NCBI GenBank assembly: GCA_009841255.1
Contig: VXMD01000080.1
Location: 1-52,281 of the forward strand
DNA from: Candidatus Poribacteria bacterium
GTDB taxonomy: Bacteria > Poribacteria > WGA-4E > WGA-3G
DNA length: 52,281 nt
Reading direction: 5' to 3'
Made by a program: the position numbers and the translations under genes. The notes under the pieces were generated by a model. It did not search any database. It saw only the letters and a program-made list of their open reading frames with translations, and had not been told where the DNA came from. This document shows, piece after piece, positions 11,616 through 50,352 of this stretch (positions within the stretch are counted from its first letter, which is position 1; the number at the start of each line of letters is the position of its first letter).

Positions 11616-13010
11616 ATGCCAGTCGTCATACCGCGCCTCGTTGTTGAGGTGTTCCAACATACAAACTTCCGGGGCAGGATGGGATATGTTGTAGAGCCTG
11701 TTTCCTTTACACGAGATATTGGATTCCAAGACAACATTTCTTCGGTTCGTGTTTATAAGGGGCCGAGCTTCTCATCGAATCCGAACTACAAAGTTATCCT
11801 TTACCAGCATCGTAACTTTCGTGGGCAAAAGTTGGCACTCGGTCCTGGATTTTACCCCAATCTGCACGACACCGCCTACAACTTCGCCGACAGAATCTCA
11901 TCGATTAACTTCGGTTCCACCCTGGAAGTCGTTGGACCGGAGTGGGGCACTATCCCGTTGATCGTGGATTGCTACGAGCACGTTGAATTCCGAGGCAGAA
12001 AAATCACCATTCTCCGCGATATCGCTAACCTACGGGATGCACAAGGTAGAACTTGGTTTGAAGACCGAATATCGTCAATCCGTATCTTCAAGGGACCCGA
12101 TTTCCCACCCCACGGCGCCGAGGTCGTCTTTTACGAACACCCCGATTTTGAAGGGGCTCCCCTACCCATCCGTATGGAACCCTCGGAATACAAAAAGGAG
12201 TTGCCGAACCTTCATCTGCTACCGCAAAACTTTGGGGATTCTATCTCCGCTGTAAAGATTGAAGGCTGGGCATCTTCTGGCGAGTTCACAGAGATGGTAT
12301 TTGAAGATGAGTTCATTGGAAACCGTATGCGTCCAGAATGGCGATGGGAGGATCCGAGAGGCGGCGGCTCCTGGGCGGAACGCCAAGGCTACTTAGAAAT
12401 GCGGACTGAACCCGGACAAGACCTCTGGCACGGTCCAGATGGCAGAAGCGGCGATTTGAGCGCACCCCGGCTCCTCATGGAAGTCCCTGGAGACTTCGCC
12501 ATTGAAACCCGCATGCGCATCTCGCCACAACTCAAAGAACACGGTGGTTTAATAGTATGGAAAAATCCCAACCGATTCCTTCGGCTTGAGAAAACCTCCG
12601 GACCACACGCCTTCAGAGGCGATGTCCGATTTGAACGCCACGTCGGACGCTCATTTAACCTACGCGGACGTAGCAGTGGACTCAGAGATGTCCGTGAACT
12701 CTTCTTACGCATAGAACGCAGAGGAAACCAATTCTCCGCTTTCGCCAGTAATGACAGTATCCAATGGAAAAGTTGCGGACAAACGAACGTTGGCATGGGA
12801 AATTCGGTACAGGTCGGGGTACACGCCCTCTGCCCAGGGAATATACCACCAACCTTAACCCGTTTCGATTTCTTCCGAGTGTTCAAACGGAGGAGCGAGG
12901 TCGCCGAATATCGTCCCATCATCGCTGAACAACACGGTCAGATATCTGACGAGGAACGTGAACGTCGAATCGCCGATCGGCGTGAACGTGCTATGCGTGA
13001 TATGTTCTAA
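11616..13010 (+). CDS. Beta/gamma-crystallin repeats fused to a DUF1349-like lectin domain
   Basis: The 464-aa protein has four crystallin-type motifs in its first 230 residues: VEVFQHTNFRGRMGYV, VILYQHRNFRGQKLALGPG, VDCYEHVEFRGRKITI and VVFYEHPDFEGAPLPI. Each is followed by an ISSxxxxKGP or ISAVKIEG strand. These Greek-key modules often bind calcium. Residues about 235-440 look like the concanavalin-type DUF1349 domain (FEDEFIGNRMRPEWRWEDP, then GGLIVWKNPNRFLRLEK and LRIERRGNQFSAFAS), typical of carbohydrate-active proteins. The C-terminus is strongly charged (RERRIADRRERAM). There is no clear signal peptide, so the location is uncertain. AAGGAG precedes the start. A carbohydrate-binding role fits the surrounding catabolic genes. 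Confidence 0.8.
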   Translation: MPVVIPRLVVEVFQHTNFRGRMGYVVEPVSFTRDIGFQDNISSVRVYKGPSFSSNPNYKVILYQHRNFRGQKLALGPGFYPNLHDTAYNFADRISSINFGSTLEVVGPEWGTIPLIVDCYEHVEFRGRKITILRDIANLRDAQGRTWFEDRISSIRIFKGPDFPPHGAEVVFYEHPDFEGAPLPIRMEPSEYKKELPNLHLLPQNFGDSISAVKIEGWASSGEFTEMVFEDEFIGNRMRPEWRWEDPRGGGSWAERQGYLEMRTEPGQDLWHGPDGRSGDLSAPRLLMEVPGDFAIETRMRISPQLKEHGGLIVWKNPNRFLRLEKTSGPHAFRGDVRFERHVGRSFNLRGRSSGLRDVRELFLRIERRGNQFSAFASNDSIQWKSCGQTNVGMGNSVQVGVHALCPGNIPPTLTRFDFFRVFKRRSEVAEYRPIIAEQHGQISDEERERRIADRRERAMRDMF

Positions 13011-13119
13011 ATAACCGTCAGCAATCGGCTTTCAGAGATATTTGTGGCAAGTGAAAACGAGAGCAACCACCACAACGATCCACCGACTACCAATAACCAA
13101 TATAAGGAGAGAATGAATC

Positions 13120-14019
13120 ATGCATCCAAAAAACGGCACCTGCTCTCAGAGCAGACATTTTGTGGAAAATTCACGGTTCTTTACAGTCTTTGTGAATGCC
13201 AAACGCGCATTCGCCCTTCTCCTTCTCGTGTTCCTCACCTGGAACGCACAACCCGCCGACGCAATCATCGGTGCGGTTGAAGACGGTTTAGTCGCTTATT
13301 GGTCCTTCGACAAAGACACAGTAAAAATTAAGAAAGAGGCAGTAGATATCTTATCAGGACTCGCTGCCGCTGTCCACGGGGATCCAGAACTTGCACCCGC
13401 CTCCGATTGCAAAGTCGGGGAGTGCGTCCTTTTTGATGGCAGTGTCGACCGCTTCCTCGTCGAAGATTCAACTCCACCGAAAATCGATCGCGATTGGGAT
13501 GAGATTACGCTGGAATGCTGGGTCTATATCAACGCTTTGGATGACAGTTGGAATCGGATTATCTCACTCGACGATATGCCAGCAAACACCGCAGTCGCCA
13601 GCCTTTATTATGACGATGACGACAACCAACACGGCTTTTTCGTCAGAGCCGGTGGCAAATCAACAGTAGCTGCACAAGATAACGTCTTGGAAGACATCCC
13701 ACTTGAAGAGTGGCTGCACCTTGCCGGCACCTACGACGGTGAAACGGTTCACTATTATGTGAACGGAAAACAGGAGAAAAAGTACGCCATGAAGGGTGGT
13801 AAACTTTCGAAAGGCGGGCTTCTTCTCGGTATTGGTGACCGTTCAGATGGATGCGATTGCGATACAATCCAAGGATATATTGACGAATTCCGAATTTACG
13901 ATCGCGTCTTGAGTGCCGCAGAAGTCGAGAACAACATGAAAGCCACCGGACTCGATGTCAGTCCTTCGGCAAGCAAACTGAGCGTTACGTGGGGCCATAT
14001 CAAAGCAAGACGAAGATAG
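13120..14019 (+). CDS. Exported LamG-domain protein with C-terminal KLSVTW motif
   Basis: The 299-aa protein has a long N-terminal signal sequence whose hydrophobic core AFALLLLVFLTW (about residues 30-42) is followed by an AxA-type site (QPADA). Residues 55-275 form a LamG/concanavalin-like beta sandwich: DGLVAYWSFDKD, CVLFDGSVDRFLV, ITLECWVYIN, WLHLAGTYDGETVHYYVNG and GYIDEFRIYDRVLSAAEVEN. Such domains bind glycans or proteins outside the cell. The end, SASKLSVTWGHIKARR, matches the ends of the LamG proteins at 26400 and 50763 and may be a sorting or anchoring signal. AAGGAGAG precedes the start. It sits between two catabolic genes. Confidence 0.85.
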   Translation: MHPKNGTCSQSRHFVENSRFFTVFVNAKRAFALLLLVFLTWNAQPADAIIGAVEDGLVAYWSFDKDTVKIKKEAVDILSGLAAAVHGDPELAPASDCKVGECVLFDGSVDRFLVEDSTPPKIDRDWDEITLECWVYINALDDSWNRIISLDDMPANTAVASLYYDDDDNQHGFFVRAGGKSTVAAQDNVLEDIPLEEWLHLAGTYDGETVHYYVNGKQEKKYAMKGGKLSKGGLLLGIGDRSDGCDCDTIQGYIDEFRIYDRVLSAAEVENNMKATGLDVSPSASKLSVTWGHIKARRR

Positions 14020-42659: not shown

Positions 42660-43991
42660 ATGAAATTTCGGATTCCGAGTATAATACTTGGAATACTCCT
42701 ATTAGGCACATCATTCTGCTTCGGGCATGGCGATGAAGAGGTCGCAGAAGATCAGGTAACCGTGAAGTCAACAGGATACTGGATCTATAACGACCTCGCG
42801 AAGGGGTTCGCCGAAGCAGAAAAGACAGGACAACCCCTGCTCGTTGTTTTCCGCTGAGTGCCGTGAGAGTCCTGCCAAGGCTTCGACGAACAAGTTGTTC
42901 GTCACGACAAACAAATCAAAAATCTGATGGAGCAATTTGTACGCGTCCGTATCGTGCAAGGCAACGGTATGGATCTATCGTTGTTCCAATTCGATTACGA
43001 TCTTACCTTTTCCGTGTTCTTCATGAACGCCGATAAAACCATCTATGGACGTTTCGGCACACGCACTGAATACGAAAATGCAGCAAAAGACATCTCAATC
43101 GAGGGTTTCAAAGCGGCACTTGAAGCCGCCCTTGCCCTACACGAGGAATACCCGAAAAATAAAGCAGTTTTAGCCGCGAAGACCGGACCTGAACCGATTA
43201 AGAAAACGCCAGAGGGATTTCCAGCGTTGTTGCGTTACGCTTCAACGTTAGATTTTAATAGTCGGATTAACCAACAATGTATCCACTGCCACCAGATTGG
43301 TGAAGCACAGCGAGAAATCCATTGGTATGACCGCAAGCCGGTACCAGACGAAGTTCTCTATCCTTTCCCAATGCCAGATGTTTTAGGACTGCACTTTTCA
43401 CCCAAGCATCGCGCAAAGATTAGCAAAATCGCGTCCGGCTCCTCCGCGGAGAAAGACGGTTTCCGTCGTGCAGACGAAATCTTAACGCTCGACGGACAGC
43501 CGATGATCTCAATTGCTGATGTGCAGTGGGTGTTACACAGCGCACCCGAAAACACAACAGTGCCGGCAACAGTAGATCGACACGGCAAACAAATTAACCT
43601 GACACTCACGCTGAACCCGGGGTGGCGGAAAGGGAGCGATATTTCTTGGCGCACGACCACAGGTGAATTACGCTTCGTTGCGCTCGGTGGGATGATGCTT
43701 CAAGACCTCTCTGATGCCGAACGCCAACGCAACAGCATTGGAGAAACAGAGATGGCATTGAACGTCGCGCGCCTCAGTCGCGGTGGACGGCGATCAAGCG
43801 GACAGACCAATGCGCAAAAGGCAGGCATCCGACGCGGCGATATCGTCATCGCTTACGGCGACCGTACCGACCGACTGACGGAAAGTGGTATTATCGGCTA
43901 CGTGCTACAGGATGCTCCTCAAGCCAAGACTTTACCCATAAAACTCCTGCGAAACGGAGAGCAGACCGCGGTAGAACTTTCACTCGAATAA
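42660..43991 (+). CDS. Predicted selenoprotein: thioredoxin-like UxxUxxC, cytochrome c-type CXXCH and two PDZ domains
   Basis: One frame of 444 codons runs from ATG 42660 to TAA 43991 if the TGA codons at 42855 and 42864 are read as selenocysteine. Signal peptide IILGILLLGTSFCFG. Residues 35-110 are thioredoxin-like; QPLLVVFR is followed by U66-V-P-U69-E-S-C72, placed where homologous redox proteins would carry Cys. A heme c motif CIHCH (207-211) follows, then two PDZ domains (about 240-320 and 365-443; SSAEKDGFRRADEILTLDG, then AGIRRGDIVIAYGDR). AAAGGAG (42645-42650) precedes the start. Reading both TGA as stops would leave a 65-residue fragment plus a headless ORF from 42927. The two TGA are in frame, two codons apart, both at the redox site, and a hairpin follows, so Sec is preferred over a pseudogene. 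Confidence 0.85.
42885..42903 (+). promoter_or_regulatory. Candidate bacterial SECIS hairpin
   Basis: GACGAACAA (42885-42893), G42894, TTGTTCGTC (42895-42903): 9-nt perfect arms. With a 5-nt loop (AAGUU) the apical loop contains GU, as in bacterial SECIS elements. G42894 lies 28 nt after the second TGA and 37 nt after the first, both near the distances reported for bacterial SECIS. Confidence 0.6.
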
Positions 43992-48201: not shown

Positions 48202-50352
48202 TCACTGCGCCCACGGTCTCGCTTGCTTGATTGAAAGCTTGCCCTCGCTCGTAATCTTGAACTCAATTTCCATAGCGAAATCGTTCGTCCGTGAAGGGGA
48301 GGTGTAGAGATTCCTGAATTTATAATGTACCGTTCCAAGATAGAAACTGAGTTGGCGTAGGTATTCATCCTTTAAAATCCGTGCGCCATCCGTCGTCCGA
48401 TTGGATGTCGTTACGATCCTATAATTATTACTATCCCACCAATCCAATAAAATCTCCTCTGGAACAGACTGTGCTTCGGGATTCGTCACGAGATCTTCGC
48501 CGACTTGGGTGTTAAGGTAATAATTTCCCTCGGTCTGGTAGACGACATCGTCGCTTACAGCCACACCGTTCGCCAACTCGCTTTCAAAATTGGGATGGAC
48601 CAACACCCCCATAGCCGTAACAAAATGGTCAATACGATAGAAATCACGTGCCTCAAACGCCCGGAAATTCCAGAGACTCGCAAACACCTGCTTAATTGAT
48701 GTGGACAAATGCCCTTCGTCCGAGTGATGTGTGTAGGAGTCGTATAACCCCGCACCGCTGAAACCGGGGAGATCCTCGTTGTTCGTGCTGGAGCGGCACC
48801 GGAGGGATGTCCCCTCTGGAAATGAGTTTTGTAATTCCGAAAGCGCGGCCATCATCCATGTCGGCATCTTACCCTTTTTAATTTCTGCTCGAAAGCTTTT
48901 CAGTTCAGCTTCCTTTGTGTCGTGATCGCTTAAAAACGCCGTATCCTTGAGTAGCCCTTCAAGGTCATCATAGAAGCCGTTGTACTTCATGAATTCGTCG
49001 TAGAAATAGAACGGTATCCCGAACCCATCTGGCACAGTCCCATCAGGAAACCCAAACGTCCGAAGTGTTGCGAGATTCGCCGTCTTCACACCGAAGCGCG
49101 AGGCGTCCGAGAAACCGATCTCGTCGAGTGGTAAAACCTTCTTGACAGAGAGATCACGTTCAGGTCTCTGTGTCCGTGAAGGACGTAAATCAGCGAAGTG
49201 AGTCTCCACCTCTTTAAGTGTCGCTTCCCTAATTTCAAACCCGTCTGCGTTCACCGCATAGTAGACATATTTACCGATGAGCGGAGCAATAGAACTGCTC
49301 TCCCACGCTTTGGCGATGAAGGCATTCGGGATTTTGTCTTGAATAGCACGGAGGTTAACGTGCGAAAGCGGCGTTTGCCGAACACCGGTGATTACTCCAG
49401 CGACTCGCGGCATTTCATTCGGCAGAGTTTTGCAAATGACGATGTCCCGAACCGTAGGACGCTCGTCTAACTCCAATACACGAAGCCTACCAAATGACGC
49501 CGCCTGATTCAGTGGGAGGTAGCCGATGTTCGCGTAAAGGTCATCCTCAAAATAGACAGGGAATTCTGCTGTGTCATAGAGAGCTCTCTCCCGTTCATAA
49601 ATCCCGATTGCCCCCCATAATGGGCAATAACCGATCCGATTTTTCAGTATCGGCATCTTCGCCACAAGCAGATCGTGCGCAAGCTTGATTTCTTCAAATG
49701 GGAATGCGTCGTTCGGATTAAACTCAAAGGTATAAACACCGGGTTCACCACTCGGAGCTATAGAAAGTGGGCGATAACTCAGCACACCCCGCATCTGCCC
49801 TTGCCCACGTCCCAAGCCAACAGCACTCATAAAACTCCCATGCGACCGATGTGTTTCTGTATTCATAAAATAAAGTTGTGGATTTTGTGTATGTGTCCTC
49901 TCAATCTGAAATTTCACAAATTCAATTCCAGTGAGTTGGGTATCAATACGCACATCCATTCCCTGATATGAAAGTTCTTTAAAGGTCTCTCTGTCGGGAA
50001 TTGTGGCTGTGCCGTCCTCGAATTTGACCTGCTCTGGATCCAAGCGCGGTCCTGACGGTCCTCTGGAACCCCGTCGTCCGCCGAATCCACCTCTTCGGCG
50101 CGATCTATCCCGCTGCCCAGTGCGCATCTCGCGAATCTCGCTCTCGCTGAATGGGGTGCCTCTGGCATCTTCACGCCGCATCACCCTCACCATGAATTCC
50201 TTTTCAGATGTGCTGAGTTCACCATCTCGATCAAAGTCAAACCGCTTCTCTTCCTGTGAGAGCTTATCTTGCGTCCAAGTGTTTAGGACAATTGTCAATG
50301 AAAATATCAGTGTACACAGGAAAAGGGTTATAATAATATGTTTCCGCTTCAT
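48202..50352 (-). CDS. Exported PPDK-N-type protein with EF-hand and swapped phosphohistidine domain
   Basis: This is a 716-aa protein. Signal peptide IIITLFLCTLIFSLTIVL. EF-hand loop DFDRDGELSTSE (39-50) has all canonical Ca2+ ligands. An Arg/Gly-rich linker follows (80-105). A phosphohistidine-like domain carries H331 (GVRQTPLSHVNLRA). Residues 415-716 match the ATP-binding domain of pyruvate phosphate dikinase or PEP synthase (VKTANLATLRTFGFPDG; CRSSTNNEDLPGFSGAGLYD). The His domain precedes the ATP domain, as in water dikinases, and the PEP-binding barrel is absent. Export would be odd for an ATP enzyme. Start with AGGAAAAC upstream. Separate from its neighbours. Confidence 0.85.
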   Translation of the reverse strand: MKRKHIIITLFLCTLIFSLTIVLNTWTQDKLSQEEKRFDFDRDGELSTSEKEFMVRVMRREDARGTPFSESEIREMRTGQRDRSRRRGGFGGRRGSRGPSGPRLDPEQVKFEDGTATIPDRETFKELSYQGMDVRIDTQLTGIEFVKFQIERTHTQNPQLYFMNTETHRSHGSFMSAVGLGRGQGQMRGVLSYRPLSIAPSGEPGVYTFEFNPNDAFPFEEIKLAHDLLVAKMPILKNRIGYCPLWGAIGIYERERALYDTAEFPVYFEDDLYANIGYLPLNQAASFGRLRVLELDERPTVRDIVICKTLPNEMPRVAGVITGVRQTPLSHVNLRAIQDKIPNAFIAKAWESSSIAPLIGKYVYYAVNADGFEIREATLKEVETHFADLRPSRTQRPERDLSVKKVLPLDEIGFSDASRFGVKTANLATLRTFGFPDGTVPDGFGIPFYFYDEFMKYNGFYDDLEGLLKDTAFLSDHDTKEAELKSFRAEIKKGKMPTWMMAALSELQNSFPEGTSLRCRSSTNNEDLPGFSGAGLYDSYTHHSDEGHLSTSIKQVFASLWNFRAFEARDFYRIDHFVTAMGVLVHPNFESELANGVAVSDDVVYQTEGNYYLNTQVGEDLVTNPEAQSVPEEILLDWWDSNNYRIVTTSNRTTDGARILKDEYLRQLSFYLGTVHYKFRNLYTSPSRTNDFAMEIEFKITSEGKLSIKQARPWAQ

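Follow-up and report, generated by a model that had tools for sequence, protein, structure and literature searches.

A candidate two-hairpin mRNA signal for neighbouring selenocysteine codons in a Trx7/PDZ protein of Candidatus Poribacteria

Bacterial genes with one in-frame UGA read as selenocysteine (Sec) depend on a SECIS hairpin behind that codon. The 52,281-nucleotide stretch of DNA analysed here (the window), from the sponge-associated bacterium Candidatus Poribacteria, contains a gene for a predicted exported redox protein whose frame runs through two UGA codons placed close together. This raises two questions: whether both codons specify Sec, and which signal in the mRNA would allow the ribosome to read them in succession.

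Gene layout, family and motif forms

Translation of the window gave a 443-residue frame with exactly two in-frame TGA codons, confirming the single open frame read in the first-pass annotation, which was made from the sequence alone. The redox motif reads R-U66-V-P-U69-E-S-C72 (UxxUxxC) and is followed downstream by CIHCH and two PDZ domains (Table 1). The thioredoxin-like region, the export and the paired PDZ domains proposed in that annotation were also supported, by a Pfam Thioredoxin_7 match above its cut-off, by a predicted hydrophobic export signal with counterparts in homologues, and by two PDZ_2 stretches together with a match to a tandem PDZ fold. For the 443-residue protein, the AlphaFold model had a pLDDT of 83 and a pTM of 0.83, and its C-terminal half resembled the tandem PDZ regions of DegQ, DegP and RseP (Foldseek E 6e-11). 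Searching the thioredoxin domain against PDB sequences returned weak matches only (AGR2, a disulphide isomerase, E 0.02). A standard gene caller reported only an ORF at 42927-43991, which starts downstream of the redox motif; gene callers thus truncate double-Sec proteins of this family.

Table 1. Features of the gene and its mRNA, in window coordinates
Feature	Coordinates	Strand	Basis
Predicted double-selenocysteine Trx7/heme-motif/PDZ protein, 443 aa, NCBIfam NF041199	42660..43991	+	frame, domain profiles, orthologues
Predicted N-terminal hydrophobic export signal, about residues 1-23	42660..42728	+	sequence; hydrophobic N-terminus also in homologues
Thioredoxin_7 domain, residues 41-124	42780..43031	+	Pfam PF13899, 57.8 bits, cut-off 27
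UGA1 (predicted Sec66), first position of UxxU	42855..42857	+	TGA in UxxU forms; TGC/TGT in CxxU and CxxC
UGA2 (predicted Sec69), second position of UxxU	42864..42866	+	TGA in UxxU and CxxU forms; Cys in CxxC
Proximal hairpin GAG.CCU-GCCA-AGGCUU, -3.9 kcal/mol, loop starting 16 nt after UGA1	42867..42883	+	UxxU-specific class at family level
Codon of C72, third residue of UxxUxxC, within apical part of proximal hairpin	42873..42875	+	Cys in 113/120 parsed genes
Predicted SECIS hairpin, 8 bp, apical loop AGU at 42893-42895	42885..42903	+	folding, covariation, SECIS rules
CIHCH, residues 207-211, likely heme c attachment	43278..43292	+	motif conservation; cytochrome c assembly genes in genome
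PDZ domain 1, residues 242-318	43383..43613	+	Pfam PDZ_2; tandem PDZ fold matches DegQ/DegP/RseP
PDZ domain 2, approximately residues 341-443	43680..43988	+	second PDZ_2 stretch (Pfam); AlphaFold model; Foldseek

The window protein scored 392 bits against the NCBIfam model NF041199, 'Trx7/PDZ domain-containing (seleno)protein' (cut-off 300), with residues 40-441 covering positions 1-389 of the 390 in the profile. The earlier statement that no described family has this combination was therefore not borne out, and a double-Sec protein is no oddity of one genome, the UxxU state being widespread in NF041199. Selenoproteome reviews list the family as CxxU with one Sec (PMC13188914, a 2026 review; PMC9312934). 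It is probably the same as the MucD-like protein with CxxC/U fused to PDZ that was found in a 2021 study of ocean metagenomes (PMC9402790). The one-Sec CxxU wording of the 2026 review, which characterises an example and forms no part of the model cut-off, does not describe the UxxU window protein. Members with Cys, with one Sec or with two Sec all qualify for the model by their score, so the membership stands and it is the motif description that needs widening. A literature search that was incomplete, with few subscription journals covered, yielded no description of a double-Sec form or a proximal hairpin in NF041199, and nothing relevant on Poribacteria selenoproteins or on a bacterial SECIS serving twin UGAs.

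We surveyed the family in 85 genomes of the Poribacteria phylum and extended the survey to Planctomycetota (124/392 genomes). The parsed set of 120 genes comprised 78 UxxU, 23 CxxU and 19 CxxC forms; with genes read later, the totals for Poribacteria and Planctomycetota came to about 95, 37 and 19, respectively. Whereas lists record a one-Sec CxxU protein, the majority of Sec-containing genes in the survey carry two Sec. No UxxC form was seen among about 150 relatives in these two groups, an absence that fits an order of change from CxxC through CxxU to UxxU. Three to five paralogues were present in some genomes (G089, G086, G008, G368), some of which mix UxxU, CxxU and CxxC, and tandem copies occurred in planctomycete genomes (L166, L168, L174).

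The genes beside the window gene, coding for chorismate-lyase-like, DUF3500 and O-methyltransferase proteins, were conserved only among close Poribacteria, and no recurrent neighbours were found near the planctomycete copies. With such limited conservation and no functional partner, gene neighbours were rejected as a guide to function. The gene has been lost in some Poribacteria and so appears dispensable there; in two cases (G055/G056, at L056 and L057) residues 1-31, the signal peptide, run directly into the DUF3500 protein of the next gene from residue 32. Only N- or C-terminal remnants are left in G083 (L029), G067 and G047, and the deletion loci include L058 and L030. One otherwise intact double-TGA copy (L003, in G061) has an in-frame TAA at about residue 152, either an error or early decay. 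In three relatives (L026, L027, L028) the contig breaks off within the gene; two of these breaks share one codon (about residue 55), which lies shortly before UGA1.

Two selenocysteines and the distal hairpin

Both TGAs were kept in every full-length orthologue (69-89% identity) in the 85 Poribacteria-phylum genomes, while fourfold-degenerate third positions were just 34-65% identical among the orthologue copies retaining both TGAs. With these sites so far drifted, retention of the TGAs is more than chance. Cys was found at both positions in the Cys-only (CxxC) relatives. The window genome contains selA (595.8 bits), selC for tRNA-Sec (78 bits) adjoining selB (353 bits), and selD (361 bits), whose product is itself a selenoprotein with TGA at the catalytic position (CAGUASKL). 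Two of the checks suggested by the first-pass annotation, Cys in homologues and Sec machinery in the genome, thus came out in favour of its proposal, and the pairing by which bacterial selenoproteins are recognised, UGAs aligned with Cys and all four sel genes in the same genome, is present. The gene for tRNA-Sec was found in 73 of the 85 genomes of the phylum. Among the TGA-interrupted frames of the window, no further convincing selenoprotein gene was found. Beside selB at one locus (L047, G000:C50:145000-164500) there is a partial tandem duplication, with lepB-like genes present twice and a chimeric ORF (12325-13701) joining the N-terminus of selB to the C-terminus of lepA; it is either a real duplication or an assembly artefact.

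The distal hairpin has the sequence GACGAACA-AGU-UGUUCGUC. It had been described as a perfect hairpin with 9-nt arms and GU in its loop; the hairpin and the GU stood, and the arms are strictly 8 bp around a 3-nt loop. Recoding the peptide with synonymous codons gave less stable folds (z -2.9, p 0.010). Bacterial SECIS elements have a loop of 3-9 nt, a stem of 4-16 bp, a minimum free energy of -7.5 kcal/mol or lower and a G within the first two loop positions (PMC13188914), and their published distance from the UGA is 16-37 nt (PMC13188914; PMC10778597). At -8.7 kcal/mol, and with its loop 26 nt from UGA2 and 35 nt from UGA1, the hairpin agrees with these rules for both UGAs. An Rfam scan of the window gave no match.

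Among the 101 Sec genes, GU in the loop was kept in all 101 and each of the first seven pairs was formed in 86-100%. The family consensus is GACGnnCA-GGU-UGnnCGUC, 18 nt after UGA2, and the AGU of the window gene is the sole departure from a GGU or GUU loop. Variable pairs use several pair types (GC, AU, CG, UA and GU at pair 5), and the arms of Sec forms have changed in a compensatory manner (for example GACGAACA/UGUUCGUC, GACGUGCA/UGCACGUC, GACGCGCA/UGCGCGUC, GAUGCACA/UGUGCAU). Pairing of own arms against swapped arms gave z values of 10.4 in UxxU, 7.5 in CxxU and 0.9 in CxxC genes; the CxxC genes have no such hairpin and the same columns are mostly unpaired. In L053/L054 the stem is kept by a pair of compensating substitutions in the protein, E to A and R to H. 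Judged by this covariation and by its spacings, the hairpin would be the SelB-recruiting SECIS for both UGAs, which would be read as Sec by the ordinary bacterial SelA/B/C/D machinery. The conserved TGA pair, the Cys homologues, the complete sel machinery and the covarying SECIS support the two selenocysteines first proposed for this gene, which is very probably a double-Sec (UxxUxxC) member of NF041199 with its SECIS in the distal hairpin.

The proximal hairpin and decoding of UGA1

Between UGA2 and the SECIS there is a second, weaker hairpin that was overlooked in the first-pass annotation. In the window gene it is bulged and not significant alone (z -0.71, p 0.22). Because it is weak there, a form shared by genus-mates, the case for it rests on the family. 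The 18 nt from UGA2 to the SECIS fold independently in UxxU genes, for example as AAGGACU-GCA-AGUCCUU or GCCU-GCNA-AGGC, and the median energy of this segment was -5.3 kcal/mol in UxxU, -1.4 in CxxU and -0.8 in CxxC genes. Compared with synonymous recodings, in which the amino acids and each gene's own codon usage were kept, the mean z was -1.78 in UxxU and -0.08 in both CxxU and CxxC. The difference of the UxxU form had a p of 2e-8 on unique sequences. Own arms against swapped arms gave z values of 7.4 for UxxU, -1.3 for CxxU and 0.1 for CxxC.

A tree built without the motif region, a quick one without a mixture model, contained 20 changes of form. From it we took 13 independent UxxU/CxxU pairs, in which the hairpin went with UGA1 in 8.0 and against it in 0.3, the rest showing no difference (median p 0.016 by the z criterion and 0.008 by the energy criterion). 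Since the test sets share descent, this is the safest figure for the proximal hairpin. The hairpin had first been noticed on the original gene set, and for this reason 27 genes unused before were tested as a held-out set. The 14 UxxU genes among them had a median energy of -7.05 kcal/mol and a z of -2.63, and the 13 CxxU genes had -0.4 kcal/mol and +0.22 (p 4.5e-5 and 2e-5 for the differences). Exceptions occur in both directions: a few UxxU genes have no proximal hairpin (L122, L100, L161), and one of moderate stability is found in a few genes of the CxxU form (L118, L177, L216). As a test of generality, another UxxU family, NF041115, gave sub-threshold matches only in 392 genomes. These comparisons suggest that the presence of the proximal hairpin follows UGA1 through evolution. 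We favour, with a probability of about 0.6, a two-hairpin mRNA signal for two UGAs nine nucleotides apart, in which the SECIS would serve both codons and the extra hairpin, apparently acquired and lost in step with the first Sec codon, would be needed for Sec at UGA1.

Several other readings have to be weighed. It is scarcely credible that the gene is a pseudogene or the product of sequencing error, or that TGA is an ordinary sense codon in this genome. Decayed copies do exist in relatives (the TAA in L003 and the remnants at L029, L030 and L056-L058), but dozens of genomes assembled independently of one another retain both TGAs, which align with Cys, the sel system is complete, and ordinary window genes still end in TGA, such as the PPDK_N gene at 48202-50352 on the minus strand. 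Decoding of UGA2 alone, with UGA1 mostly terminating or serving as a regulatory stop and little full-length double-Sec protein made, would suit the 35-nt distance between UGA1 and the SECIS loop, which is near the outer limit of 37 nt, and the 37 CxxU genes in which UGA2 stands by itself. We nevertheless consider it improbable: UGA1 has been maintained through saturating synonymous change, its position is occupied by Cys in CxxU and CxxC genes, and on the tree it was gained or lost many times, mostly together with the proximal hairpin.

Clade preferences in amino acids or G+C, having nothing to do with UGA1, might instead account for the difference in the proximal segment. The residues of the segment do differ somewhat between forms and the sequences share descent, but the synonymous null preserves amino acids and codon usage, the independent pairs control for descent, and genes that share the A-G-C peptide still differ according to form, GCUGGYUGCGCCAGC folding in UxxU genes and GCAGGCUGCGAGAGC not folding in CxxU genes. 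We consider this account about as improbable as the preceding one. The proximal hairpin could also be a second SECIS that binds SelB and serves UGA1 alone, each UGA then having an element of its own. Its loop starts just inside the 16-37 nt range (PMC13188914), and it is present with UGA1 and absent without it. However, this loop is not conserved (GCA, GCAA, GCGA, GCCA, GAAA) and is set largely by the Cys codon TGC, in contrast to the GU that the distal hairpin always keeps, and that single hairpin is already within range of both UGAs. The unconserved loop without GU makes a second SECIS the less likely explanation, an unlikely one that we still take seriously.

The proximal hairpin thus remains, in our preferred two-hairpin reading, an element distinct from the SECIS that probably helps to decode the first UGA. 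With UGA1 in the A site, its start would lie some 12 nt downstream, where the mRNA enters the ribosome, and it could form there. It might then shorten the path to the distant SECIS, pause the ribosome, or both, and so favour Sec over termination. With UGA2 in the A site, it would already be melted inside the ribosome and the SECIS would lie at its normal distance. The many independent switches between CxxU and UxxU make NF041199 a natural experiment in which an RNA structure appears with an extra UGA. They make it directly testable, through an 18-nt segment, how bacterial SelB handles neighbouring Sec codons and what sets the distance between UGA and SECIS.

Possible role and comparison with known systems

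CxxCH was found in 120 of 120 parsed genes, a figure that is partly by construction because parsing required a downstream CxxCH. In a 22-member alignment collected without this requirement, C207, H209, C210 and H211 were invariant. The window genome encodes three Cytochrom_C_asm proteins (cytochrome c assembly), and the two marks of a c-type cytochrome, CxxCH in an exported protein and cytochrome c assembly genes in the genome, are therefore both present. For the heme c site proposed earlier, the conserved CxHCH motif held, and attachment of heme c at CIHCH is likely, as judged by the motif. The export signal, the UxxUxxC Trx7 domain, the CxHCH motif with assembly genes and the tandem PDZ domains lead us to suggest, tentatively, a periplasmic oxidoreductase whose substrates are client proteins that it binds. 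As a thiol/diselenide oxidoreductase, it might hold client chains by its tandem PDZ domains while electrons pass between its one c-type heme and the Sec pair.

As published, NF041199 shares with the window protein the Trx7-CxHCH-PDZ-PDZ layout and Sec at the second motif position, but is CxxU with one Sec where the window protein is UxxU with two. SelL and Prx-like UxxU selenoproteins have a diselenide motif (Shchedrina 2007, cited in PMC2398784) and, like the window protein, combine a thioredoxin fold with a UxxU redox motif that holds two Sec. They are a different, peroxiredoxin-like family without heme motif or PDZ, and the likeness, by motif only, is an analogy of mechanism and not of membership. 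The tandem PDZ regions of DegP/DegQ and RseP have a fold like that of the C-terminal half; unlike these proteins, the window protein has no protease domain, and what its PDZ domains are joined to is a module with the redox and heme motifs.

At the RNA level, the distal hairpin fits the bacterial SECIS model of Zhang and Gladyshev (summarised in PMC13188914) in stem, loop, position of the G, spacing and energy. It departs from that model in two respects: one element would serve two UGAs, and a second hairpin, linked to UGA1, lies ahead of it. If true, the two-hairpin signal would amount to a bacterial recoding element of another kind than the classical SECIS. The selenocysteine redefinition element (SRE) of eukaryotic SELENON is a stem-loop close behind the Sec UGA that acts besides a separate SECIS. 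The proximal hairpin is like it in being a stem-loop near a Sec UGA in addition to a separate SECIS, and differs from it in being bacterial, in lying within a twin-UGA motif and in that its part in decoding is put forward here from comparison of genes.
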